A DNA stretch of 61,676 nt, from positions 1-61,676 of the forward strand of contig CALHIR010000004.1 in NCBI GenBank assembly GCA_938030705.1, written 5' to 3'. Of this stretch, positions 6,101 to 40,825 are shown piece after piece. A program made the translations under genes and the position numbers. Numbering within the stretch: the stretch's first letter is position 1; every line of letters starts with the position of its first letter. The notes beneath the pieces are model-generated. The model worked only from the letters and a program-made list of their open reading frames with translations, had not been told where the DNA came from and searched no databases. This DNA is from Candidatus Poseidoniaceae archaeon (lineage in GTDB: Archaea; Thermoplasmatota; Poseidoniia; Poseidoniales; Poseidoniaceae).

Positions 6101-6781
6101 GATGCCGCGGCTTACGCTCATGTTTTCAGGACTCGGCCACTCCCCGGCTCCTGCGATGATGTTCTCGCTGTACCGTTCGGCCAGTTCGCCGTCAAAAGCT
6201 TCGGGGCCGTAGAATCGGATGGCCCGCATGTCCGAGATGGGAGGTCCAGCTTCGGCTGCTTCGGGATAATCGAAGGTCACGTTGCCCCAATACGGGTTCT
6301 CATCATCAGCAATGGCCCGCATTTCGAGCGGTTGCGCCACCACGAATTCAATGTTGAACAGCCCCGCACTGTGGATGCCTTGACGGCCGAGTACGAGGGT
6401 GCAGTCGTTAAATTGCGAGAACTCATCCATCAGTTCATCGCAAACTTCCACCATCGTCGAGGTGTTGTTTGACCAGCCACTGGCGTTCTCCACCGGGGTT
6501 CGGGCGTATTCGATTTTTGCATCAAAAGGCTCGGACTTAAGCGATTCTTCGAAAAAGAGTTGAGACAAACCGACGCCGTAGGCCAGCACGGTGGTGATGA
6601 CCAGCGAAGCGAGGAAGACACCGGCGATGACCGCCAGTCCACGCTCTTTGCCTCGCCATGCCCCTTGGCCGGCGAGACGAAGACGGCTTGGAAGTTCCAT
6701 CGCCCGATGCTTGAGGCGACCGAGGCGTGAACGACCGACCGAGAAATCAGCGTCGGTTAAGCCATCTTGACGCTCGCTCAT
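3161..6781 (-). CDS. Giant FtsX/MacB-type ABC permease with an internal pentapeptide-repeat domain
   Basis: The 1206-residue permease holds two FtsX-like halves. A first membrane helix lies near residues 48-72, a three-helix FtsX block near 385-520, a central pair of helices near 545-605, another helix near 635, and a final FtsX block near 1060-1200 with the usual LSQRQKELAVLQAIGAS motif. Large non-membrane domains sit between. The second one contains about 20 pentapeptide repeats at residues 820-923, a right-handed beta helix that I have not seen described in this permease family. It overlaps the upstream ATPase by ATGA and is flanked by two ATPases, so it probably forms a heteromeric exporter or lipoprotein/adhesin release machine; the substrate is unknown. 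Confidence 0.87.
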   Translation of the reverse strand: MSERQDGLTDADFSVGRSRLGRLKHRAMELPSRLRLAGQGAWRGKERGLAVIAGVFLASLVITTVLAYGVGLSQLFFEESLKSEPFDAKIEYARTPVENASGWSNNTSTMVEVCDELMDEFSQFNDCTLVLGRQGIHSAGLFNIEFVVAQPLEMRAIADDENPYWGNVTFDYPEAAEAGPPISDMRAIRFYGPEAFDGELAERYSENIIAGAGEWPSPENMSVSRGIILPSTIASEAQANVGDVLDSLTFAYVVDESTILEGTVTEDNCAGEITPENNEMIYCRMWMTVENLTVMGIYEPWPFGNPTLPFNPIFSTWEVLTEDQRAVLMDNDHMYLGATIDRGQLPTTSTADAADWLEALGSDVQDGSYTDEEVELYYTDIISGTILFLNIFLGLIQIFDYIIMIPIVFLSVSVLIYGLVLSLEQRRREVSIHRVIGADGQSLQGMVLLELFVMSSVAWLVGYLLALLAVPIVLSAVGFMEFRTGDFDVTPTLSVGSTIFTAVTTLGLALLFGRSRARQFIELEIEEGVRKTSQAAEPKRWLHWLAFLFGMLAVGDTWLEANGSEDGLVSNFFFEGLINIFGPFALWIGGALLLGRIGARGPQIMQVIFGRTPLLKDVKRGLKGSGSAESVNRLAVIMLLTLSIVTLAAVQGYTGTLVDEKTVDATVGSDLKITVEQPMNETALLAMLGEFTSASVSPVATSVPEIGLADNSGGDTLQTYVLFNDNGDVLRWSEQALPGEDIDAVLAAYAAGGFSAGEDSAYSLDLAGSGRGGDEKRLDDVLLKPSDEKSETITFVWEKIEFNFTTGGSDETDPLALFEAYSLLMDSDWSRLNLTGQDLSGRDISRVDLSDGNFSGTNFAQSNLSESILVDTDLSYANFQGANLQNTVLVNFMGGSLEGTDFTDANLEGAFGFFDLSGAILTNATCPDGTAADETSCVSGPSQVPPPLGASLFFTDTTVRIITTPFTTDLYYMGVHEYIPGVNTATAAGAIIIGEDAWRSLVGDDEADNYTSTTWIVDVSGVEDEQLEALGSKMSADSRVSSVEDWASTHKEVERNGGLIFGTPGLLSLQFVVASVAAVASSFVFLSLVLSQRQKELAVLQAIGASPNQIIRLVLFEILSIVMVSMALGIVLGVGLALSFNGFFDVFGFIFQIFGGSTTTIQRTLVYPWSQIILVSLAVFAAVVVALLVTTRRALKADLASVLKGE
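4010..4320 (-). repeat. Pentapeptide-repeat segment inside the ABC permease
   Basis: About 20 consecutive five-residue units with the A(D/N)Lxx-like pattern are readable, for example DLSGR, DISRV, DLSDG, NFSGT, NFAQS, NLSES, DLSYA, NFQGA and NLQNT. They lie in the second extracytoplasmic domain of the permease, around residues 820-923. Such repeats fold as a quadrilateral beta helix. A CPDG-x(6)-SC loop follows and may form a disulfide. Confidence 0.8.
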
Positions 6782-7557
6782 TCTTCCTCACCTCCGCCGG
6801 TGGCTTCCACCACTGGTTCAGCGTCGTCGTCGGATGCCGAAACGGCGTCTTCTTCGTCGTCAAGGCCCCATGCCGAGCGAATGTCGGAAGCTTCGGTACG
6901 CCCGTCGTTCAAGAGCAGCATGCGGTCGGCGTTGGAAGCCAAATCAGGGTCGTGAGTGACCATGAGAATGGAAATTGGGTGTTCCGCATCGTGGCAGAGT
7001 TCCTTGAACAGCGCCATCACTTCCTTGCCGCTGGCGATGTCAAGGTTGCCCGTGGGTTCGTCAGCCAACAGAACGGGACGATTGCCAGCGATAGCACGAG
7101 CGATGGCCACGCGCTGTTGTTGACCGCCAGAGAGTTGGTCGGGGATGAAATGCATACGGTCGCCTAAACCGACTTTATCCAGGGCTGTTTCGGCCGCCTG
7201 AACCGCTTCAGCTGATGACATGCCCGACAACTCAAGCGCCATTGCAACGTTGTCAACGGCCGTTAAATTGTCGAGAAGATGGAAATCTTGGAAGATCCAC
7301 CCCACCAGTTCCCTTCGCACGTCGACGACACTCGAGGGCCCCTTGAGGCCGTAGGTTCGCTTTCCGAGCGTGATGCTTCCTTCATCGCCTGCAAGAAGGC
7401 CGCCAATGATGTTGAGCAGCGTGGATTTTCCTGAGCCGGAGGGGCCCATCAAAGCGACCATTTCGCCTTGCTTGATGTTCATGTCCACGCCCTTGAGGAC
7501 CTGCAGTTTGTTGGAGCCGGAGCCGAATGCTTTGGTAAGCCCGTTCACTGATAACAT
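6778..7557 (-). CDS. ABC transporter ATP-binding protein (LolD/MacB type)
   Basis: The 259-residue ATPase has Walker A GPSGSGKST, signature LSGGQQQRVAIARAI, Walker B PVLLADEPTGNLD and a switch His in VTHDPDL. Its last 40 residues are acidic and alanine-rich and poorly conserved in appearance. It is the first gene of the exporter operon and overlaps the permease by ATGA. The ATG at 7557 has an AAAGGTG Shine-Dalgarno-like stretch in front; an earlier in-frame ATG at 7572 would add five residues (MKGAE) and would lack such a site. The two ATPases of the operon are clearly different, suggesting a heterodimeric nucleotide-binding pair. Confidence 0.88.
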   Translation of the reverse strand: MLSVNGLTKAFGSGSNKLQVLKGVDMNIKQGEMVALMGPSGSGKSTLLNIIGGLLAGDEGSITLGKRTYGLKGPSSVVDVRRELVGWIFQDFHLLDNLTAVDNVAMALELSGMSSAEAVQAAETALDKVGLGDRMHFIPDQLSGGQQQRVAIARAIAGNRPVLLADEPTGNLDIASGKEVMALFKELCHDAEHPISILMVTHDPDLASNADRMLLLNDGRTEASDIRSAWGLDDEEDAVSASDDDAEPVVEATGGGEEE

Positions 7558-7590
7558 CTCGGCACCTTTCATATCACATTATTGGAAAGT

Positions 7591-28712: not shown

Positions 28713-30536
28713 ATGGGACGAAGCGTTGCGGCCGTTTGGCTGGTCACCCTTCTGCTCTGTTCCTTGCTGCCCCATGGCTTGTACGGTGGCGCTGCTGTCA
28801 AAGAATTCAGAGATTCACCCGTCGTTTCGGCCTCTGGAGCCTCCGGCCTCGTCATCGCTTTTTCCAACGGACCGGCGGAAAACGATGAGGTGAAAGGCAA
28901 TTACGCCTTGACGTTCAGCGTCGCTGGAAACGGCACCCTCGATTCGTTGTTGATCGAAATCACGACCGATGAATCCACCTGGGACACCGTGGTCAATTTG
29001 ACGACCACCCCGTGGATGTTCCCGCTTGATACAACGGCCTATACCAACGACACCTACAAACTCCGTGCCTCGGGATGGGACAGCGACAGCGAAAGTTTTG
29101 CGCTCGCTTCATCCGGATGGTTTGACATTGTGAACCAGGTTCCCGTCATCACCACTTTCACCGTCCTCAACCCCGATGCCGGCACCGGCAACAGTTTTGG
29201 CGACCGAGCATGGTTCAACCTCGATGCGCAAGGTACACTGGCGTTTCGTTGGGGCGCAAGTGATGACGATTTGAAGCAAGCTACGCTGGCAAATGTTCCT
29301 GGCCCTGGCGCACCACCAACAGACGGCCCCTCCTCGCTCAGTTATGGGTGGGATTGGAGCAGTGGAAACATGCAAGAAGGGACCTGGTCACCACGTCTGA
29401 CCGTCCAAGACCATTCTGGACTCTCCGCCTCCTCAACCCTGTTTATTGGCATTGACCGGACCGCTCCGAGCATCGGGAGCGTCACGATTGGCGACGGCGG
29501 CGCATGGCAGCAATCCAACAGCGTCACGGTCAGCGGTCTCATCTCCGAGGCCGACGACGGCCAAGGCTCAGGTGTGGCCAGCATTCAATACGCGCTTGGT
29601 GAGCAGGACTGGGCGTCGACCACCAACGATTCCATCACCTTGACCCTCGAGGAGGGCGTACACAACCTGACCCTGCGTGCGATTGACCGAGTTGGAAACA
29701 TCGGTCAAAACAGCACGTTCACCGTTCGTGTTGACCAAACAGCACCTCTCGGCTTGTCGTGGGAGGTTGATGTGTTGACCACCACCAGAATCGGTCCCGC
29801 CAACATCACCTTCAACGCCGAAGATGCAGATTCCGGCATTGACAACAGTTCATCCTACATTCAGTACGGGTTTGACTCCAACGGTGTGGGCGAAACACCG
29901 GACCTTTCAGGCCGATGGTTGACGATGGGCGTCAATGGTCTTTCAGGCCAGGTCGGTTTGGCCAGTTGGGCCACAAAATCACGTCAACACTTGATGCTGC
30001 GTGCGGTTCTCGTTGACGAAGCGGGCAATTCGTTCACGACTCAAGCGTCCTCCTACCAAATCCTACCCGGACTTGACCTCTCCTGGAACTCCAGCCTGAC
30101 CAACGTGGACCGTATTGTCGTTCGGCCGGGTGAGCAAACCGGCAACATCACCATCACGAGCGTGCTCGAGTCAAACCAAGATTACGGTGGTAGCGTCATC
30201 GTGCGATTGGAAACAGCTCCGGCTGACCGTTCCTCCACCGTGAACTGGACCGTCATGGAAACGCGAAATTTGCCAGCAGGTACACTTTCAAACAGCAGCG
30301 AAACCATCGTTTGGAAATACACGGTGCCTCGTTCAGGCCAGTTTGACCTCCGCCTGGTCATCGACTTCGCCAACGTCATCGATGAATACGATGAAGGAAA
30401 CAACGACAACTACCTCGTGGTGACGGGTGCATCGCTGGATTCACCCGGACTTGTGCCCTCTTTTGCCCCCTCACTCATCGTTCTCATCCTCGTGGGCTTT
30501 GCTCTCTCCTTCCTCCAGCGCAGGACAAGGGATTGA
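28713..30536 (+). CDS. Large secreted beta-sandwich protein with C-terminal membrane anchor
   Basis: The 607-residue product has a signal peptide (VAAVWLVTLLLCSLLPHGLYG), then repeated immunoglobulin-like domains of the kind found in bacterial surface proteins; fragments such as FIGIDRTAPSIGSVTIG and VRVDQTAPLGLSWEV repeat an (I/V)D-x-TAP motif used twice, and WDSDSESF, EDADSGIDNSS and SVLESNQDYGG follow. The last extracellular domain is CARDB-like (DFANVIDEYDEGNNDNYL). A single membrane helix near residues 580-602 ends in QRRTRD, so the anchor has a very short cytoplasmic tail. The start ATG has GGTGTGGAG nine bases in front. It is divergent from the zinc-ribbon surface protein. Confidence 0.75.
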   Translation: MGRSVAAVWLVTLLLCSLLPHGLYGGAAVKEFRDSPVVSASGASGLVIAFSNGPAENDEVKGNYALTFSVAGNGTLDSLLIEITTDESTWDTVVNLTTTPWMFPLDTTAYTNDTYKLRASGWDSDSESFALASSGWFDIVNQVPVITTFTVLNPDAGTGNSFGDRAWFNLDAQGTLAFRWGASDDDLKQATLANVPGPGAPPTDGPSSLSYGWDWSSGNMQEGTWSPRLTVQDHSGLSASSTLFIGIDRTAPSIGSVTIGDGGAWQQSNSVTVSGLISEADDGQGSGVASIQYALGEQDWASTTNDSITLTLEEGVHNLTLRAIDRVGNIGQNSTFTVRVDQTAPLGLSWEVDVLTTTRIGPANITFNAEDADSGIDNSSSYIQYGFDSNGVGETPDLSGRWLTMGVNGLSGQVGLASWATKSRQHLMLRAVLVDEAGNSFTTQASSYQILPGLDLSWNSSLTNVDRIVVRPGEQTGNITITSVLESNQDYGGSVIVRLETAPADRSSTVNWTVMETRNLPAGTLSNSSETIVWKYTVPRSGQFDLRLVIDFANVIDEYDEGNNDNYLVVTGASLDSPGLVPSFAPSLIVLILVGFALSFLQRRTRD

Positions 30537-30561
30537 AAAGCATCGGGCATCACGGGCGACC

Positions 30562-31311
30562 ATGCGCCAGTCGCTCCCCCGTGTACCCAAAGACCGCATT
30601 GCGGTCATCATCGGTGCCAAAGGGGCGACCAGCAAAGCCATCCGTGAAGCAGCAGGCTGCCGCAAATTCATCATCGATTCGGAATCCGGTGATATTGAGG
30701 TCGAGTGGGGCGAAGCGGGAACCTACGACCCGGTCAAAGCCATGAAACTCCCCGACGTGGTCAAAGCCATCGGTCGAGGCATGGCTCCCGATGCAGCCGT
30801 CCGGCTGCTGGAAGACGACCATTTCTTTGAACTGGTCGACCTTCGAGAATACGTCGGAAAGCGGTCCAATCAACAACGCAGGGTGCGTGCTCGTATCATC
30901 GGCCGTCAAGGCAAAATCCGCAAGTTGATCGAACAGTTGACCAATACACAAATCAGCATTTACAATTCAACCGTGGTCTTGGTTGGTGAGGAGAGCGGAT
31001 TGTTCGCTGCGCGTCAAGCCATTGAAATGTTGGCCGGGGGGTCCGAACACGGCACCGTCATCGGCTTCCTTGAACGAGACCGAAAGCGAGCTCGCCTTGA
31101 AGGACGCTCGTTGGATGCCCACGAAGAGCGCACACCAGCCAAAACCTCCTCCTCGGCCTTTGAAGGGCTGGTGCCGGGCCTCGCAGAAATATCTCAAGAA
31201 CGTCGCAACCGACGCATGAAAGCTTCTCAAGTTGACCCTGAAGACGATGATGCGGTCGTTGAGATGATGGAACTTGCCGATGACGAGGCCATCACGTGGG
31301 AAGAGGAGTGA
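30562..31311 (+). CDS. KH-domain RNA-binding protein, Dim2/Pno1-like rRNA-processing factor
   Basis: The 249-residue protein has two KH domains: the first at residues 5-75 (VPKDRIAVIIGAKGATSKAIREAAGCRKF with GAKG as the degenerate GxxG) and the second at 95-160 (RARIIGRQGKIRKLIEQLTNTQISIYNSTVVLVG, GRQG). This order matches the archaeal homologue of Dim2/Pno1, which binds the 3' end of pre-16S rRNA together with RIO kinase and Nob1. A charged C-terminal tail follows and is longer than usual. It is convergent with RIO1 two bases away, so the archaeal Dim2-RIO-eIF1A group is kept together though its strands differ. The open frame to 30427 overlaps the previous gene. Confidence 0.9.
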   Translation: MRQSLPRVPKDRIAVIIGAKGATSKAIREAAGCRKFIIDSESGDIEVEWGEAGTYDPVKAMKLPDVVKAIGRGMAPDAAVRLLEDDHFFELVDLREYVGKRSNQQRRVRARIIGRQGKIRKLIEQLTNTQISIYNSTVVLVGEESGLFAARQAIEMLAGGSEHGTVIGFLERDRKRARLEGRSLDAHEERTPAKTSSSAFEGLVPGLAEISQERRNRRMKASQVDPEDDDAVVEMMELADDEAITWEEE

Positions 31312-33079: not shown

Positions 33080-34780
33080 TCACCATGCGCCCACAAGAGC
33101 GTTGGCAGCCGATTCGCACAGGGCGATCAATTGTCCTGCTCCGACGCCGAAGTAAATCGTCGTGATCAAACAGGCAATGATGGCGAAGCGAACGGGTGCT
33201 CCCTTGGGAAGGGCGCCTTCACGACCTTCTTCGGGTTCATGGAAGTACATGACCAGACCGACACGGAGGTAATAGAAGACCGATATGGCAGAGTTGATGA
33301 CCATCAACAGTGCAAGGTACCAAACCCAGTGGATGTCGGCGAACACCAAGTCGCTGTTGACGGTGACATCGAGCAAGGCGACCTTGACGATACCCATGAT
33401 GACCAAGAGTTTCGACACGAAACCGGACAGCGGCGGTACACCGGCCAAGGACATCATGAAGATGAACATGGCCACCGCCAGGAACGGATCTCGCTTGGCC
33501 AAGCCGCCAAGCGATTCAAGGGTATGACCGCCGTTCTCCGATTCCAAAAGGGACAAGACGAGGAAGGCGCCGAGTTTGAAGCAGACCAGTACCGTGAGGT
33601 GGAAGATGAGGGCGGTGACGACCACCAAGGCTGCATCGTTGCTCATGTCGACGTGCCCGTCTTCCCAATTGAGCGCTCCAATCGCCGTGATGGCGGCGAG
33701 CATGTAGCCAGCGTGGGCGACCGAGGAGTAAGCGAGCATGCGCTTCGGATTGGTCGAACCGAGCGCTGCCAGGTTGCCCCAGGTCATGGTGATGACCGAA
33801 AGGACACCCAGAGCGACAAGCCAGACAGCAGAGCCGTCCGTTGCTTCGGGTGAGGCGACCACCAAGAGGAGACGAAGCAACCCGAGGACACCCATGGCCT
33901 TGCTGGCCGTGGCGAGCACACCAGCGACCGGGGCCGTTGCACCGGCGTAGGCATCGGGCGCAGCGAAGTGGAACGGGGCGGCGCTGACCTTGAAGCCAAA
34001 GCCGACCAATAACATGCCCAGCGCAATAAGGGGCAAAGCTTCCATACCGTTCTCAGCGAAGGCGATGGAAAGGTCGGTGAACTGCAAGGAACCTGACCAG
34101 AGGTAGAGCAACGACAGCCCGTAAAGACCGACACCTGAAGCCACGGAACCGACGATGAAATACTTCATGCCGGCCTCTGTTCCTTCCTTGCTCTCCTTCA
34201 TGAAGGAGACCAGCACGTAGGTAGAGAATGACGCCAATTCAAGGCCGATGAAGAGCATGAACAGATCCTGAGCCAAAGCGACCACGGCCATGCCCAAACC
34301 GGTGGTGATGAGCAGGATGTAGAAGTCAACTTGACGTCGGTTATTGTACAGACCGTTCAAACTTCGGTCGGCTCGGCTGGTCGCTGGAAGACGATTCACC
34401 GAGGCAGCACTTGCGAGGGCAAGCGCCCCGAAGAAAATGAGTTCAAACATGCGGCTGAACTCGTCGATTTGCAGCATCGTGGTGCCGTTCGCCGTGACGA
34501 TTTGGGTCTTGATCATCCCGTTGACAAAGGACAAGGCCGTCAATCCGAAGGCGATGGTGAAGAACACCGTGGCAAAGAGACCGGGCAACCGCGGGTCGCT
34601 GTCGAGCTTCCCTCGTTTGCCACCAAGAAGCCACGGAACGCGGATTTGGGTCAGTGGAATGCGGAACTTCGCATCGCCCATGTTGGGCACGATCATCAGC
34701 GTAAACAATCCGATGACGAGGACGAATTCTGGCGCAAGAGCGAGGACAAAGCCGTCGGCAAAGGGTTCAATTTGCTCCAT
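33080..34780 (-). CDS. nuoN: Complex I subunit N (proton-pumping antiporter-like)
   Basis: The 566-residue protein is the 14-helix antiporter subunit N. It shows the conserved lysine and glutamate channel residues in the helices with SFMKESKEGTEAGMKYFIVGSVASG, AAPFHFAAPDAYAGATAPVAG, AYSSVAHAGYML and VCFKLGAFLVL. Length is normal to slightly long. The ATG at 34780 comes one base after the nuoM stop, and GGAGGTG lies in front of it inside nuoM; the in-frame GTG at 34789 was rejected. It is the last gene of the nuo operon and is followed 80 bases later by aIF1A. Confidence 0.94.
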   Translation of the reverse strand: MEQIEPFADGFVLALAPEFVLVIGLFTLMIVPNMGDAKFRIPLTQIRVPWLLGGKRGKLDSDPRLPGLFATVFFTIAFGLTALSFVNGMIKTQIVTANGTTMLQIDEFSRMFELIFFGALALASAASVNRLPATSRADRSLNGLYNNRRQVDFYILLITTGLGMAVVALAQDLFMLFIGLELASFSTYVLVSFMKESKEGTEAGMKYFIVGSVASGVGLYGLSLLYLWSGSLQFTDLSIAFAENGMEALPLIALGMLLVGFGFKVSAAPFHFAAPDAYAGATAPVAGVLATASKAMGVLGLLRLLLVVASPEATDGSAVWLVALGVLSVITMTWGNLAALGSTNPKRMLAYSSVAHAGYMLAAITAIGALNWEDGHVDMSNDAALVVVTALIFHLTVLVCFKLGAFLVLSLLESENGGHTLESLGGLAKRDPFLAVAMFIFMMSLAGVPPLSGFVSKLLVIMGIVKVALLDVTVNSDLVFADIHWVWYLALLMVINSAISVFYYLRVGLVMYFHEPEEGREGALPKGAPVRFAIIACLITTIYFGVGAGQLIALCESAANALVGAW

Positions 34781-34781
34781 A

Positions 34782-36419
34782 TCAGGCACCTCCCGTCAAG
34801 ATTGGAATCAAGAGTGTTTCAAAGAACGCCACGGTCCACCCGTTCATCATGTCAAGCGCAATCCACGGCATGACACCGAACAGGATGGTAAAGGCGGCCA
34901 TGATGACCATGGCCAATTTCTCAGCGTCGCTGATGTCCGGAACGGGTTGGCCTTTGAGGCTCTCAGGCGGCTGAGTTTCCTCGCCACCCTCGAAGATGGT
35001 GCGCTGCATCGACCAGAGGTAGTATGCGGCGGTCAGGGCCAACACAAGTGCCGGTCCAACCATCCAGAGCACGCTCCAACCCTCGGCGGCGATAAAGTGC
35101 CACAGAGCCAAGAACATCATCAATTCAGCAACAAAGCCCGCCAAAAGGGGCAAACCGAGGGAGGCCATCCATCCGAACATCATGGAGGTGGCCAGCCAAG
35201 GAGAGTGCTTGGCCATCCCGCGCATGGCACCGATTTCCATGCTGTGGTAGTGGTGCTTGAATGCACCACAGACGGCGAAGAGCATCGGGCTGATGATGCC
35301 GTGGGCGAACATCATGAAGAGTGCAGCGGCCCATCCAAGCGGTTGCATGGTGGCGATGCCGATGAGGATGACACCCATGTGGGAGACCGAGGAATAAGCG
35401 ACCATCTTCTTGAGGTTCGTTTGACCCAAACAGACGATGGCACCCCATACGAGGGAAACCATGCCCAAGGCCAACAACCAGAACTGGAAGTGCTCGGCAG
35501 CGTGCGGGAAGAAAGCCAGCGGGAGACGGAACATACCGTAGGCGCCCATCTTCAGCATGACACCGGCCAGCAACATCGAACCACCGGTAGGGGCTTGGAC
35601 GTGCGCATCCGGCAGCCAAGTGTGGAAGGGCACGGAGGGCAACTTCACGAGGAAACCGATCATGAGCATTACGAACAGAATCTTCTGCAGGCTCTCACCG
35701 AGGAACCACGCACCGTTCGCGTTGGCGACTTGGGCGTGAGCCGTCAAGGTCGGGATGTCAAAGGTTCGACCGGTCCAAGCGCCAGCGTAGGAGAGGTCCT
35801 CCGGCTGGAGGAAGTACACGGTGACCAGACCCAAGAGCATGATGACCGAGGCCGCGAAGGTGTAGATGAAGAACTTCTGAGAAGCATACTTTCGGTCGTA
35901 GCCACCCCACTTGAGGATGAGGAAGAACATCGGAATTAGGGTCAGTTCCCAAAACACGTAGAACATGAACAGGTCCAAGGCCACGAAGACACCGATGAGC
36001 GCACCGCCCATCATCAAGACCAGCGGGAAGTAAACGGCGGCGTTCTTCTCGTTCCACGTGGCCACGATGGTCACGGGCAAGAGGAAGGTCGTGAGCCACA
36101 CCATGGGGAAGGACAAAGCGTCCATGCCCACGCTCCAGTGGATGCCAAGCGATTCAATCCAGACGTAGCGGAACTCGTAGTTGAACGATCCAAACGAGAG
36201 GGAAGCCCAGTCCGAGGTGCCTCCAATGAATTCGATGCCGAAAAACATGGCCGTGGTCAGCGCCAACATCAACAGCGAGAAGATGAGGGTCGCCATTCGA
36301 ACCGACGGCCCCATGCGCTCACGGGCAGCAGGGGAGGCATAGGCGACGAACGCCAAGATGGCGATGCTGCTGACAAGCGGCAAAGCCACGAGCGGCAGGG
36401 AAATCCAATCGGTCGTCAA
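34782..36419 (-). CDS. nuoM: Complex I subunit M (proton-pumping antiporter-like)
   Basis: This 545-residue antiporter subunit has the M signature DGLSFPM-like VGMDALSFPMVWLTTFL, FYVFWELTLIPMFFL, FHTWLPDAHVQAPTGGSMLLAGVMLKMGAYG, AYSSVSHMG and FMMFAHGIISPMLF. The start is TTG at 36419, overlapping the nuoL stop in TTGA with GGGTGGTC ahead; the TTG at 36434 (five residues longer) lies within nuoL and is less likely. The channel lysines and the broken-helix prolines are in place. It partners nuoN and nuoL in the membrane arm. Confidence 0.93.
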   Translation of the reverse strand: MTTDWISLPLVALPLVSSIAILAFVAYASPAARERMGPSVRMATLIFSLLMLALTTAMFFGIEFIGGTSDWASLSFGSFNYEFRYVWIESLGIHWSVGMDALSFPMVWLTTFLLPVTIVATWNEKNAAVYFPLVLMMGGALIGVFVALDLFMFYVFWELTLIPMFFLILKWGGYDRKYASQKFFIYTFAASVIMLLGLVTVYFLQPEDLSYAGAWTGRTFDIPTLTAHAQVANANGAWFLGESLQKILFVMLMIGFLVKLPSVPFHTWLPDAHVQAPTGGSMLLAGVMLKMGAYGMFRLPLAFFPHAAEHFQFWLLALGMVSLVWGAIVCLGQTNLKKMVAYSSVSHMGVILIGIATMQPLGWAAALFMMFAHGIISPMLFAVCGAFKHHYHSMEIGAMRGMAKHSPWLATSMMFGWMASLGLPLLAGFVAELMMFLALWHFIAAEGWSVLWMVGPALVLALTAAYYLWSMQRTIFEGGEETQPPESLKGQPVPDISDAEKLAMVIMAAFTILFGVMPWIALDMMNGWTVAFFETLLIPILTGGA

Positions 36420-38986
36420 GCGACCACCCCCCAAATCAGCGCAAAGAGACCCAAGGTGCCCAACGCCGCCATCAAGATGTAATCACGTGCTGAACCTGTG
36501 GTCAGCGAACGCAACTTTGTGGAAATTTGTTGTGAAGTTCGCTCGATCATCTTCACGGTCCCGTCAATGACGCTCGAGTCCGTTTCTGCGGCCTTGAACG
36601 AGAAGGCGGCGACGATTTTGAGCATGGCCAGGTCGTAGTAGTGGTCAAAGTAGAGACGGTTCTCGAGGGCGGTTGCGAAACCGGATTGCCCAAAGGACGA
36701 ATTGTCCCAATGGTAGCGGCTTTTGACGTACTGGTTCACGGCGAGAACAGGTCCAAACCACGGCAGAACCTCTTCGCCATCGTCAAGCTTGCCACCGTAC
36801 AGGGACAAAGCAAGACCCGGGCCGACCACGGCGCCGATGAACAGCGCCACGTACGTCAAGATGAAGAAGAACATCTTCTCGTTGGCGAAAACGTGCTCCA
36901 TTTCGTAGAGGAAGCCGCCCCACAAACCACCGTGGTCGGACATCAATCCGTACTCTCTGTCGGGCGCCCAGTGGGTGAAACCCATGCTGGCGAAAAGGAT
37001 ACCAGCAAGGCTGAAGAAGGTCAAGATGAACAACGGCGTCTTGATCCACGTATTGGTGGGATGGACGTGAGCCGCAACATCGGTCTTTGGTGAACCTGCG
37101 AAGGTCTTGAGCCACATGCGGGACATGTAGAAGCCGGTCATACCAGCGCCCAAGAGCACGCACATGGCAGGGTAGAAGAAGCGAGGGTCTTCCAAAGCAA
37201 CCCGCCAAGTATTGGCAATGATGCCTTCCTTCGACCAGAAACCGCCGATGAGCGGGAAGCCCATGATGGAAAGTGAGCCGACCAGCATGGCCGTGGCGGT
37301 CAGTGGCATCTTCGAGGCCAAGCCGCCCATGTTCTCCATGGATTGGGCGTCAAATTCGTCGTGATGGTCATCGTGGCCACCAAGAGACGCGAGGTGGACG
37401 CGGCCGAGGGTCAACTCCAATTCCGGGACGTTGATGCGCCCGTTGCCATCCATGTCAAGGGCCTTCATCAACGGCCCCATTTCCCAAGGCGGAAGGTCGG
37501 CGATGTTGGCCTCTTTGAGGGCTTTTTGAAACTCGTAGGTATCGACTTCGCCCGATTGGTCAAGGTCGATGGCGTTGAAGAAACCAAAGACGGATTGACC
37601 TGTTTCTGCGAGGTAATTTGCGAGCATCAGGAGTTCCTTTGGTTCCTCATCGTGGTGGTCGTCGTGAGGGTGGAGATGGTGGTGCGCGTGGTGGACCTCG
37701 TGAATCACCGCACCGCTCGCCATGAAGAGCATGCCCTTGGCCATGGCGTGGTTGAACAAGTGGAAGAGGGCAGCACCAAAAGCCACGATGACGATGGCGT
37801 GGTTCGCGTAATAGTCAGGGTTCTTGGTGCCATCACCGAGGTACTCGTGCCAGTGGAGGGTGTTCGCAAGGTAGAGAGCGGCGCCCAATCCGGTGAAGAT
37901 GTAAGCGAGTTGCGACATGGTCGAGTAGGCCAAGACCTTCTTCAAATCCTGTTGGACGAAGGCGATGGCCGCCGCCATAACCGCCGTTGTTCCACCAATG
38001 GCCGCGATAATGAAGGCCAAATCGGCGAGTTCCCCGTGCATGGACTCTGCACCGAAGAAATGGAACATACGAGCGACGAGGTAGAGGCCAGCGTTGACCA
38101 TGGTCGCAGCGTGGATGAGGGCGGACACGGGGGTCGGGCCTTCCATGGCATCGGGCAGCCAAACGTGAAGGGGGAACTGAGCGGATTTACCCACGGCACC
38201 AATGAACATCAGGCCCAGGGCCCAAGCGAGGCTACCGGGGTTGGAAGCGGCGACCTTCTCGATGTTGTACTCGTTGAAGACCACGGCGTAGTCAAGCGAA
38301 CCGAAGAGGTCCCAAAGAACGGCGAGTCCGACCATGAGGAAGACGTCGCCAACACGGGTGGTCAAGAAGGCCTTCTTGGCTGCGTAAGCGGCGCTGGGGC
38401 GTTCGTAGTAGAACCCAATGAGCAGGTAAGAGCACAGGCCCATCAATTCCCAGAAGATGAACAACCAAAGGAACGAGTCAGCGAGCACCATGCCGAGCAT
38501 ACCCGAACAAAAGAGCACAAACTCCGCATAGAAGCGGTGATTACGGTTGTCGTTGATAGGATCGGTGTTCATGTAACCGATGGCAAAGGTGTTGATGAGC
38601 AAACACAGGAAAGAGGCAATGAAGAGCAACATCACGGTGATGTGGTCGATGTGAACGCCGAAACCAAAGGTGATCTCGGTGGTCACCACGCCGGAACTCC
38701 ACATGCTGGAGGTGAACCAGGTCCAGTCCGAGAGTTTCTGAACACCCCCATAGGCGCCGATGAAGTCCGAGACGAGCCAAAGGGACAAGCCGAGACTGGC
38801 CCCCATGAAGGCCAAAGCGATGAGCCCGCCTTCTTTGAGCGTCTCTTTCCACACCTTGTTGCCGTTGAACATCTTACCGAGGAACAAAATCACCGGGAAG
38901 GCCAACATGGGCAAGAGGAGAATGTAGGGCGCATATTGCGCCGCTGTGCTGTTTACGATTTCTGAACTGCCTGAACCTGCCATCAT
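36416..38986 (-). CDS. nuoL: Complex I subunit L with an inserted EF-hand pair and histidine-rich linkers
   Basis: The 856-residue antiporter subunit is about 200 residues longer than usual. The common core is there: WELMGLCSYLLIGFYY, HVWLPDAMEGPTPVSAL, AYSTMSQLAYI and FNHAMAKGMLFMASGAVIHE, plus a long C-terminal lateral helix region. After the VIHE helix and before the MGGL helix there is an insert of about 125 residues. It begins with a histidine-rich stretch (427-445), then two canonical EF-hand loops at 474-485 and 511-522 with flanking helices, and ends with another His cluster (534-543). Otherwise this helix connection is short. The insert could bind calcium and control proton pumping. 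ATG 38986 has GAGGTGAG five bases ahead. Confidence 0.94.
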   Translation of the reverse strand: MMAGSGSSEIVNSTAAQYAPYILLLPMLAFPVILFLGKMFNGNKVWKETLKEGGLIALAFMGASLGLSLWLVSDFIGAYGGVQKLSDWTWFTSSMWSSGVVTTEITFGFGVHIDHITVMLLFIASFLCLLINTFAIGYMNTDPINDNRNHRFYAEFVLFCSGMLGMVLADSFLWLFIFWELMGLCSYLLIGFYYERPSAAYAAKKAFLTTRVGDVFLMVGLAVLWDLFGSLDYAVVFNEYNIEKVAASNPGSLAWALGLMFIGAVGKSAQFPLHVWLPDAMEGPTPVSALIHAATMVNAGLYLVARMFHFFGAESMHGELADLAFIIAAIGGTTAVMAAAIAFVQQDLKKVLAYSTMSQLAYIFTGLGAALYLANTLHWHEYLGDGTKNPDYYANHAIVIVAFGAALFHLFNHAMAKGMLFMASGAVIHEVHHAHHHLHPHDDHHDEEPKELLMLANYLAETGQSVFGFFNAIDLDQSGEVDTYEFQKALKEANIADLPPWEMGPLMKALDMDGNGRINVPELELTLGRVHLASLGGHDDHHDEFDAQSMENMGGLASKMPLTATAMLVGSLSIMGFPLIGGFWSKEGIIANTWRVALEDPRFFYPAMCVLLGAGMTGFYMSRMWLKTFAGSPKTDVAAHVHPTNTWIKTPLFILTFFSLAGILFASMGFTHWAPDREYGLMSDHGGLWGGFLYEMEHVFANEKMFFFILTYVALFIGAVVGPGLALSLYGGKLDDGEEVLPWFGPVLAVNQYVKSRYHWDNSSFGQSGFATALENRLYFDHYYDLAMLKIVAAFSFKAAETDSSVIDGTVKMIERTSQQISTKLRSLTTGSARDYILMAALGTLGLFALIWGVVA
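37421..37567 (-). other. Two EF-hand calcium-binding loops inside NuoL
   Basis: Loop one, 37532-37567, encodes DLDQSGEVDTYE; loop two, 37421-37456, encodes DMDGNGRINVPE. Both have Asp at positions 1 and 3, Ser or Asn at 5, Gly at 6, a hydrophobic residue at 8 and Glu at 12, which is the canonical 12-residue EF-hand. The 25-residue connector is normal for an EF-hand pair, and helices flank each loop (VFGFFNAI, YEFQKALKEA, LMKAL, PELELTL). The flanks are histidine-rich. Confidence 0.9.
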
Positions 38987-38992
38987 CTCACC

Positions 38993-39295
38993 TCAGTTCT
39001 TCAGGACGTTCACGTCGTCCAGCGTAATCGATTCGTGTTGACCGTACATGGCGAGGAAGATGGCCAGACCAATGGCCACCTCGCTTGCGGCGATGGCGAT
39101 GGCGAAGATGGTGTAGACCCATCCGGTCGTATCGCCGTGATGTACGGCAGCTGCGGCGAACTGCATGTTCGCAGCGTTGAGCATCAATTCAATGCACATC
39201 AAGACAATGATGGCGTTCTTTCGGGTGAAGGCACCGGCCAAGCCAATGACGAAGAGGAGGGCGGACAATCCCGAAACCCATGCTGGATCGATCAT
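38993..39295 (-). CDS. nuoK: Complex I subunit K
   Basis: The 100-residue protein has three membrane helices and the conserved Glu residues of NuoK (MCIELMLNAANM). The start overlaps the nuoJ2 stop in ATGA, and nuoL begins six bases after its stop. Length and order match the family. It contributes to the proton path next to subunits J and A. Confidence 0.94.
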   Translation of the reverse strand: MIDPAWVSGLSALLFVIGLAGAFTRKNAIIVLMCIELMLNAANMQFAAAAVHHGDTTGWVYTIFAIAIAASEVAIGLAIFLAMYGQHESITLDDVNVLKN

Positions 39296-39561
39296 TCTTC
39301 TTCACCTCCAAATTCCCAGAGAAGATTTTCCATTCGCTCGTCGCGAACAAGGTAAGCCGCACCCATCATGGCCATGGCCATGAGGAGGCCGAGCACCAGC
39401 AGCGCAAAGCCCCACTCCGTGAGCAGCGAATCGGCAAGTCCAGAGGTGGTTGGCGTGGTCGTGGCGGGGTCAGCCCACACGCTGTCGTCGTTGAGCACAG
39501 CGACGAGGATGAAACCAAGGGCCAAAAGGCCGAGTCGGGTGAACAACGAGGTGAACTTCAT
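39292..39561 (-). CDS. nuoJ2: Complex I subunit J, second half (split NuoJ)
   Basis: This 89-residue protein corresponds to the C-terminal half of NuoJ. It has an N-terminal helix, an exposed Asp/Thr-rich loop, one more helix with LLVLGLLMAMAMMGAAYLV, and an acidic end. In haloarchaea and other euryarchaea NuoJ is likewise split in two consecutive genes. It overlaps nuoJ1 by ATGA at the upstream side and nuoK at the downstream side. On its own the sequence is too short and diverged to prove the assignment; the context makes it likely. Confidence 0.85.
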   Translation of the reverse strand: MKFTSLFTRLGLLALGFILVAVLNDDSVWADPATTTPTTSGLADSLLTEWGFALLVLGLLMAMAMMGAAYLVRDERMENLLWEFGGEEE

Positions 39562-39834: not shown

Positions 39835-40815
39835 TCAAGCGTCCCCCTTGGCTGCCTCTGCGGCCTTGGCCGCCTTTCTGGCCCGCTTATCGCGCTCTTT
39901 GGAGGCACGCTTGGCCAACTCGGCGTCAACCGCTTCCTGGTGAACGCCGGGAAGCACACGGGTACGGGAAGCATCAAACCACAAGTCTTGGCGAGTAAAG
40001 CCGGACATACCATCGTATTCGTTGGTCATGAAGAAGGACGTGAAGCCACACGCTTCCATGCACAAACCACAGAACATACAGCGACCGAGGTCAATGCGTC
40101 CCGAAACGATTTGGTCATCTGCGGGATAGAGTTCAGCGGTGGCCACGGTGGCTTCCTCGCCGGAATCATTCCAGCGAACGGTGGCCGAATCGCCCGAAAG
40201 GTCGAGGACTTCGGCGAAGCGCCATTCCTCGGGCGGGGCTGCGTGGGCTGTGACGTGGTTGAAACGGTCCAGTTCAGCCACCACTTCAGGCACCTCAACG
40301 GCGGCGAACTTGCCAACTTCGAGCTCCATACCGAGGCCTGCATTTTCACCCTCAGCATTATCGAGGACGTCCACGCGAAGTTCGGTGGTCATGTGAAGGC
40401 AGTCGTTGGGGCAGATGTTGACGCACATCTTGCACGCCGTACACGTCTCCCAAATCACGCCAATACGGCCGTTGTAGTTCCCGGGGACGAAAAGCCAGGG
40501 CTCCATGTCTTCGAGACGCTCGTAGGGGTACTGCACCGTTTGGGGCTTCCAGAGGGTGGGTTTGAGGTCGGAGGTCACTCGGTCGGGTGCGAACTCTTGG
40601 CGGGTGATGTCGTTCATCTCTGCTGAAGAGGCTGCACGGGCTCGACTCCCGTCGTCCAAGAACTCAGGGTGGGAGGTGTTGTGGTAGGCGCCCAATCGCT
40701 TACCGAACCGCTTACCGATGAACGGGAAGGTTCGGAGCGCCGTGATCAACGTAATTTTGAACGGGTACCAAAACAAGTTTCTGAAATTAGGCTGTGCGTG
40801 TGGATGCATTGGCAT
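39835..40815 (-). CDS. nuoI: Complex I subunit I, 2[4Fe-4S] ferredoxin-like, with a large insertion
   Basis: The 326-residue protein carries the two cluster motifs C125-x2-C128-x2-C131-x3-C135P and C246-x2-C249-x2-C252-x3-C256G that pass electrons towards subunit B and the quinone. Between them are 110 residues instead of the roughly 30 of E. coli NuoI; the insert reads as a small beta domain (WRFAEVLDLSGDSATVRWND). A basic, alanine/lysine-rich tail follows. The N-terminus has a longer extension than usual. The start ATG at 40815 has GAGGTGA five bases upstream; the in-frame GTG at 40824 overlaps the Shine-Dalgarno site and is rejected. Confidence 0.93.
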   Translation of the reverse strand: MPMHPHAQPNFRNLFWYPFKITLITALRTFPFIGKRFGKRLGAYHNTSHPEFLDDGSRARAASSAEMNDITRQEFAPDRVTSDLKPTLWKPQTVQYPYERLEDMEPWLFVPGNYNGRIGVIWETCTACKMCVNICPNDCLHMTTELRVDVLDNAEGENAGLGMELEVGKFAAVEVPEVVAELDRFNHVTAHAAPPEEWRFAEVLDLSGDSATVRWNDSGEEATVATAELYPADDQIVSGRIDLGRCMFCGLCMEACGFTSFFMTNEYDGMSGFTRQDLWFDASRTRVLPGVHQEAVDAELAKRASKERDKRARKAAKAAEAAKGDA

Positions 40816-40825
40816 GGTGTTCACC

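Follow-up and report, generated by a model that had tools for sequence, protein, structure and literature searches.

The window, a stretch of 61,676 nt, contains a run of complex I genes on its minus strand, comprising nuoN, nuoM, nuoL, nuoK, a split nuoJ, nuoI, nuoH, nuoD and nuoC. Next in the cluster come nuoB and nuoA, which were named from position and sequence only. The genes and features around the insert in NuoL are the following:

33080..34789, minus strand: nuoN, neighbour, EF-hand match absent
34782..36434, minus strand: nuoM, neighbour, EF-hand match absent
36416..38986, minus strand: nuoL, NADH-quinone oxidoreductase subunit L with EF-hand insert, 856 aa (TIGR01974 and fold match)
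37190..37306, minus strand: helices 561-575 and 583-599 after the insert, predicted broken TM12 holding K586
37349..37375, minus strand: His/Asp-rich right border, aa 538-546
37388..37642, minus strand: paired EF-hand module, aa 449-533 of NuoL (Pfam, profile, predicted structure)
37421..37456, minus strand: EF-hand loop 2, DMDGNGRINVPE, aa 511-522
37532..37567, minus strand: EF-hand loop 1, DLDQSGEVDTYE, aa 474-485
37643..37702, minus strand: His/Asp-rich left border, aa 429-448, which occurs in module-free NuoLs too
37673..37813, minus strand: helix 392-438 ahead of the insert, predicted TM11 (model and hydropathy)
38993..39295, minus strand: nuoK, neighbour
39292..39561, minus strand: J2, second half of the split nuoJ, named by place and by similarity to relatives

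The 856-aa ORF was identified as NuoL using the NCBIfam subfamily model TIGR01974, which scored 437.8 bits against a cutoff of 407.5. The equivalog model PRK06590 scored 467.4, under its cutoff of 556. Both the context of a nuo cluster and the predicted fold agree with the identification as NuoL. In the fold search the full-length model matched complex I NuoL/ND5 chains with TM-scores to the target of 0.63-0.76 among the matches listed, and with an rmsd of mostly ~15 Å because the model is weak in parts. J2 had no Pfam match of its own, one of its relatives showing a weak NuoJ match, and in this genome it does not carry the C-terminal EF-hand module that is present in the J2 of two other genera. 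The NuoF hallmark PF10589 was found in 7 of 14 control genomes and had no match in our genome, which is ~90% complete. With this match missing, our complex I may be without an NADH module. In NuoI (39835-40824, minus strand) what looks by eye like a long stretch, of ~90 aa, separates the two 4Fe-4S cysteine motifs. Three genomes in the collection (G287, G020 and G142) have two NuoL loci apiece, which are either real paralogues or the product of mixed assemblies.

An initial annotation of this DNA had described a 125-residue insert in NuoL with two EF-hand loops. We found both loops in NuoL exactly as written there, and the EF-hand pair is thus real, but the size was not right, the module being ~85 aa long within a loop of ~120 aa. 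In the model the helices that flank this loop end near residue 438 and begin near residue 561. Each EF-hand loop has 12 residues with oxygen ligands at positions 1, 3, 5, 9 and 12 and Gly at position 6. Three single-hand Pfam models scored over their cutoffs (EF-hand_5, 30.0 bits, cutoff 25.9; EF-hand_1, 28.7, cutoff 25.4; EF-hand_6, 27.0, cutoff 25), and two pair models scored under theirs (EF-hand_7, 23.3, cutoff 30; EF-hand_8, 15.1, cutoff 28). In a search of the PDB with a profile built from 17 modules of several carriers, EF-hand chains matched down to E 3e-18, the value for a calmodulin-calcineurin fusion and for a CDPK; matches to calmodulin alone began at ~1e-15. The isolated module, predicted from 29 sequences, gave a confident EF-hand pair with a pLDDT of 91.9, in which the two helix-loop-helix units are packed against each other as a pair. 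When this model was submitted to Foldseek, nearly all of the 50 matches listed were, by title, EF-hand proteins or EF-hand-based calcium sensors. The best match had an E-value of 3e-3 and a probability of 1.00, and none among the matches listed was at or below 0.001. The insert is acidic, with a pI of 4.6 and a net charge of about -16. At the level of sequence and predicted fold, residues 449-533 of NuoL are confirmed to be an EF-hand pair.

The loop that houses the module is normally short, as had been claimed: two fixed motifs are separated by 131 residues here and by 35-53 in 43 NuoLs that lack the module. The histidine-rich borders reported around the insert are there as well, but they do not belong to it, since module-free NuoLs share them. 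In the 43 module-free sequences of the named set the TM11-TM12 loop contains 8-17 histidines, and the motif HHAH opens the loop in all module-free NuoLs read from 18 other genera, in both families. The His/Asp runs are shorter and more varied in the second family. As NuoLs without the module have them, the His-rich stretches are older than the module. The suggestion that the histidines are part of the same device as the EF-hands is unsupported, since their presence in the loop predates the module. Judging from these comparisons, the module was inserted into a NuoL loop that was already His/Asp-rich.

The initial annotation had proposed modelling the chain to locate the insert, and in the full-length model (pLDDT 65.2, 39 sequences) it falls in the TM11-TM12 loop. 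Sixteen membrane helices were counted in NuoL from the model and hydropathy. Eleven of them are predicted to precede the insert and 15 to precede the long lateral helix, and the two therefore lie on one side of the membrane. The lateral helix of complex I is cytoplasmic. Based on the helix count and this known side, the NuoL insert should face the cytoplasm. How the module is positioned relative to the channel is uncertain, because the full-length model is only moderately confident and its pLDDT falls under 50 at residues 777-845, around the lateral helix. Residues E180, K267 and K586 are invariant in a 13-row alignment (A2), and we take them to be equivalent to known channel residues.

In order to assess the distribution of the insert we surveyed 292 genomes of the order, using genus labels that are independent of the insert. 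In Poseidonia (marine group II), the genus of our genome, the NuoL match spans the insert in 26 of 27 genomes, our own included. One of these matches (G180) runs through the insert with an internal TAA, and the 27th genome (G200) has only a NuoL fragment, which starts at residue 541, past the insert. Outside the genus, NuoL has the insert in 9 of 10 genomes of g19, which belongs to the other family, Thalassarchaeaceae. Eight of these show a match through the insert and one (G073) a split match, while the tenth genome (G239) has no NuoL match. The 988-aa NuoL of G073 appeared to have an extra insert of ~100 aa near residue 280; this was rejected, a run of X at that place being an assembly gap. 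Absence from close relatives had been named in the initial annotation as an argument against its claim. The result is divided: 26 of 27 genomes of the genus itself carry the insert with its ligands conserved, whereas it is missing from NuoL in the sister genus and in a further 19 genera of the sample.

We also inspected a named collection, the best 80 of 320 relatives as ranked with an insert-bearing query. The module is present in 36 of these best 80 loci, a share that is not to be read as a frequency. The 36 are L143-L170, which consist of all 11 loci titled Poseidonia and 17 that rank with them, and eight g19 loci, one of which is titled Thalassarchaeaceae. Of the remaining 44 loci, 43 are without the module, and in one (L179) the site is covered by a run of X. 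At the level of the phylum 116 genomes were sampled, 53 of which lie outside the order and have a match; in none of these 53 did a match (E <= 1e-20) fall inside residues 449-533, although a diverged insert could escape this threshold. Likewise, the best stretch enters residues 449-533 in none of the 60 listed NuoL-like PDB sequences (of 66 matched).

A tree of the NuoL core was calculated with the insert columns removed (38 rows from 22 genera, 25 of the rows, from 20 genera, being without the insert). On this tree two changes are needed to account for the presence of the insert, and the genus nearest to Poseidonia is g2, whose NuoL is without it. A single clade of insert-bearing NuoLs, corresponding to transfer of the whole gene, was rejected (p-AU 4.4e-7). 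Most simply, NuoL would have gained the insert twice, in Poseidonia and in g19; a single early gain with many subsequent losses would be less simple. On a tree of the module (85 columns), a clade uniting the two NuoL modules is compatible with the data (p-AU 0.39), and exchange of the module alone between Poseidonia and g19 is therefore possible. This tree resolves little, with 24 of 57 inner branches starred, and it groups the g5 and g19 modules from NuoJ together (97/85).

Conservation of the loop ligands, a check proposed at the outset, is complete in the first Poseidonia loop and nearly so in the second. Positions 1, 3, 5, 6, 9 and 12 of EF1 are D, D, S, G, D and E in 29 of 29 Poseidonia-type sequences. 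In EF2 of the same 29 sequences, D1 and E12 are found in all, D3 in 27 (N in 2), N5 in 26 (D in 2, X in 1), G6 in 28 (E in 1) and N9 in 22 (D in 7). The g19 modules depart from the consensus Gly in EF1, with R at position 6 in 8 of 8 sequences, and have D1 and E12 in 8 of 8. In 23 near-full-length genes, the ligand positions 1, 3, 5, 9 and 12 (n=10) have a mean majority fraction of 0.952 versus 0.802 for the other module positions (n=75; permutation p 0.0066). In the same 23 genes pN/pS was 0.225 for the module and 0.145 and 0.158 for two core parts of NuoL, ratios that are rough because synonymous sites are near saturation. The module is under purifying selection and is constrained less tightly than the NuoL core.

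The EF-hand insert had been presented as a feature of NuoL. It is present there, but it is not specific to NuoL, as further proteins, among them NuoJ and subunit I of the ATP synthase, also carry the module. Carriers were surveyed with the module profile at E <= 1e-7 in 49 genomes, 1-4 per genus, from 22 genera. In the sister genus g2, 4 of 4 surveyed genomes have the module family in A/V-type ATP synthase subunit I, the family identity of which was established for one of the four. An alignment of 21 subunit I proteins showed the module in all 5 from g2 and in 0 of 16 others. It is located just ahead of the membrane part and is 65% identical to the NuoL module of our genome. The matching stretch is His/Asp-rich in most of the 16 module-free proteins, most clearly in g1, g3, g5 and g8 and weakly in some (g6, g16). 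Exact matches of 12 nt are shared between the His/Asp-rich stretches of the genes for NuoL and subunit I; among random segment pairs, 0 and 1 of 300 attained this length. Such matches are expected of DNA that is rich in CAC/GAC. They represent a possible route of transfer or recombination between the two genes.

The module is also found at the C-terminus of J2 in two g5 genomes and in g19. At three g19 loci (L171, from 3665; L176, from 3383; L177, from 3671) the NuoJ-EF protein runs on into a charged part and a tail, which in our view resembles a helix-hairpin-helix. A hydrophobic protein without a family name ends in the module in all of the eleven genera of family f1, in one or more genomes per genus; in G020, G124 and G240 this module was not seen at E <= 1e-7. 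The member in our genome is located at C2:66942-67190 (L096), with relatives at L087, L089, L115, L116, L128 and L129. Variants have two modules (g6) or an added SAP domain (one g10 member). A Pfam scan of six members gave no family beyond EF-hand and, in one, SAP, one of two scanned proteins had a weak match to cbb3-oxidase (E 0.0028), and a PDB profile search was dominated by EF-hand matches with no family name emerging. One g11 genome has the module in a 628-aa protein without a family name. In the surveyed genera of the second family other than g19, EF-hand matches were weaker or none.

Our own genome has 10 EF-hand matches across 8 ORFs. Its EF-hand proteins include a ZnuA-like metal-binding protein (L039, contig C23), which has several EF-hands along with stretches rich in His and Asp, and an amino-acid permease (L036, contig C1), which has an EF-hand pair at its C-terminus. 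Because the module profile misses both at E <= 1e-7, they are EF-hand proteins that are not assignable to this module family. A zinc-ribbon-like protein (C5:104626-105456, L005) has two EF-hand pairs and relatives in g2, g6, g10, g17 and g19. Of 49 greedily chosen ORFs in the window, three end in -EEE (6781-7581, minus; 30424-31311, plus; 39292-39561, minus), where Glu content would lead one to expect ~0.02. The same ending is seen in EF-hand carriers (NuoJ-EF, the amino-acid permease and the hydrophobic carrier protein) and is possibly a C-terminal tag.

We give an even chance to the reading that the module is a reusable cytosolic calcium sensor in ion-translocating complexes, in which we infer both that the NuoL insert binds Ca2+ and that it tunes the pump. 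A rise in cytosolic Ca2+ would load the EF-hand pair, and the module, linked to TM11 on one side and to TM12 on the other, would shift its shape. This shift could pull on TM12, which is directly attached and holds the conserved lysine K586, and perhaps on the lateral helix, so that proton uptake or the activity of the complex would go up or down. In relatives, the sensor would act elsewhere in the ion circuit. The cytosolic placement matters because seawater calcium, at about 10 mM, would saturate a module on the outside. The N-terminal part of ATP synthase subunit I is cytosolic, and the NuoJ tail is placed in the cytosol by the positive-inside pattern, read by eye from the sequences. Together with the predicted side of the NuoL insert, these placements have all three modules pointing to one compartment. 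EF-hand identity, presence throughout the genus, conservation of the ligands, the predicted cytoplasmic side and repeated use (NuoL twice, subunit I, NuoJ2) speak for the sensor, while the NuoLs of 20 other sampled genera, which are without the module, and its faster change relative to the NuoL core speak against it. A Ca2+/cation exchanger in our genome proves nothing, as it was also found in 11 of 14 control genomes.

Binding could also be constitutive: Ca2+ (or Mg2+) would then stabilise the distal end of complex I or hold it to a partner, with no switching. Conservation of the ligands fits such a clamp equally well, and divalent ions raise the activity and stability of E. coli complex I, where bound Ca2+ is thought to fix a loop of NuoG, according to PMC8357420. 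A single complex-specific clamp would not explain why the module family is also found on unrelated proteins such as subunit I and the hydrophobic carrier, and we consider this alternative rather unlikely. Alternatively, low-complexity His/Asp loops may simply accept insertions, leaving the module idle for the pump. Such a tolerated passenger would agree with the location within His/Asp-rich stretches, which in NuoL and subunit I have exact matches of 12 nt in common, and with the module evolving faster than the NuoL core; purifying selection, above-average conservation of the ligands and presence in 26 of 26 genus members with the site covered make it improbable.

The charge of the insert (pI 4.6, about -16), on what helix parity predicts to be the cytoplasmic side, would suit an antenna by which insert and histidines draw protons or cations to the mouth of the pump, calcium itself having no specific role. 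An antenna needs charge alone, whereas Poseidonia conserves residues of EF-hand geometry such as G6 and the aliphatic residue at position 8, and this explanation seems distinctly improbable to us. By their titles, most of the records are metagenome assemblies, which raises the question of an assembly chimera. The same junction has already been observed in independent assemblies, and the insert occurs in 36 of the 80 named loci (best 80 of 320), from many isolates and assembly projects, so that the likelihood of a chimera is practically negligible.

Returning to the calcium sensor, we tentatively extend it to the Poseidoniales at large, with somewhat less than even confidence: a mobile calcium-sensing cassette may have entered the ion circuit of the energy membrane several times, in NuoL (two lineages), in NuoJ and in subunit I, with sister genera tapping different machines and with respiration and ATP synthesis under direct and evolvable control by Ca2+. 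If true, abundant marine archaea would have a built-in, testable switch on proton pumping, which would also be a natural probe for the control of the distal NuoL channel. A single regulatory module would be reused across several ion-translocating machines, and calcium may tune energy production in these archaea.

Full-text literature searches, which covered few subscription journals, found no paper that places an EF-hand in NuoL or in subunit I of the ATP synthase, nor any on direct calcium sensing by a proton-pumping subunit of complex I or by a subunit of A-type ATP synthase. Passages of PMC6794264, PMC2651865 and PMC7447434 had no bearing on the subject. PMC6336850 describes the complex I of Poseidoniales and an A-type ATP synthase that may be driven by Na+; the words calcium and EF-hand are absent from the main text of PMC6336850 and PMC6461757. 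Calcium-binding domains are noted among the family-specific proteins of the two Poseidoniales families, in passages of PMC9258230 that do not mention complex I, ATP synthase or an insertion.

The known systems closest to our finding each share one part of it. NDH-2 enzymes are flavoproteins of a single chain and do not pump protons. In the EF-hand NDH-2 of plants (such as NDB1) and fungi (such as NDE1) a putative calcium-binding domain lies within a respiratory NAD(P)H dehydrogenase (passages of PMC6134880). Here, too, such a domain is built into a respiratory enzyme, but the host is an antiporter-type subunit of complex I. We rejected NDH-2 as an identity for the NuoL chain itself, which is antiporter-type and no FAD/NAD(P)H dehydrogenase chain and could only work like one. 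The same passages state that some NDH-2 enzymes with the domain are not calcium-activated, and the presence of an EF-hand therefore does not guarantee control. E. coli complex I also binds Ca2+, but in NuoG of the peripheral arm and with a stabilising role (passages of PMC8357420). The antiporter-like subunits NuoL, ND5 and MrpA have the same core sequence, fold and conserved residues as our NuoL, with its 16 counted helices, and differ in the insert, which the best-matching stretch enters in none of the 60 listed (of 66) PDB sequences. Calmodulin and calcium-dependent protein kinases have the same paired EF-hand sequence and fold as the module, which in NuoL is one pair only and is embedded in the loop of a membrane protein. 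Taken together, a known domain and a known subunit are found here in a new combination, and the repeated reuse of the module is the surprising part.
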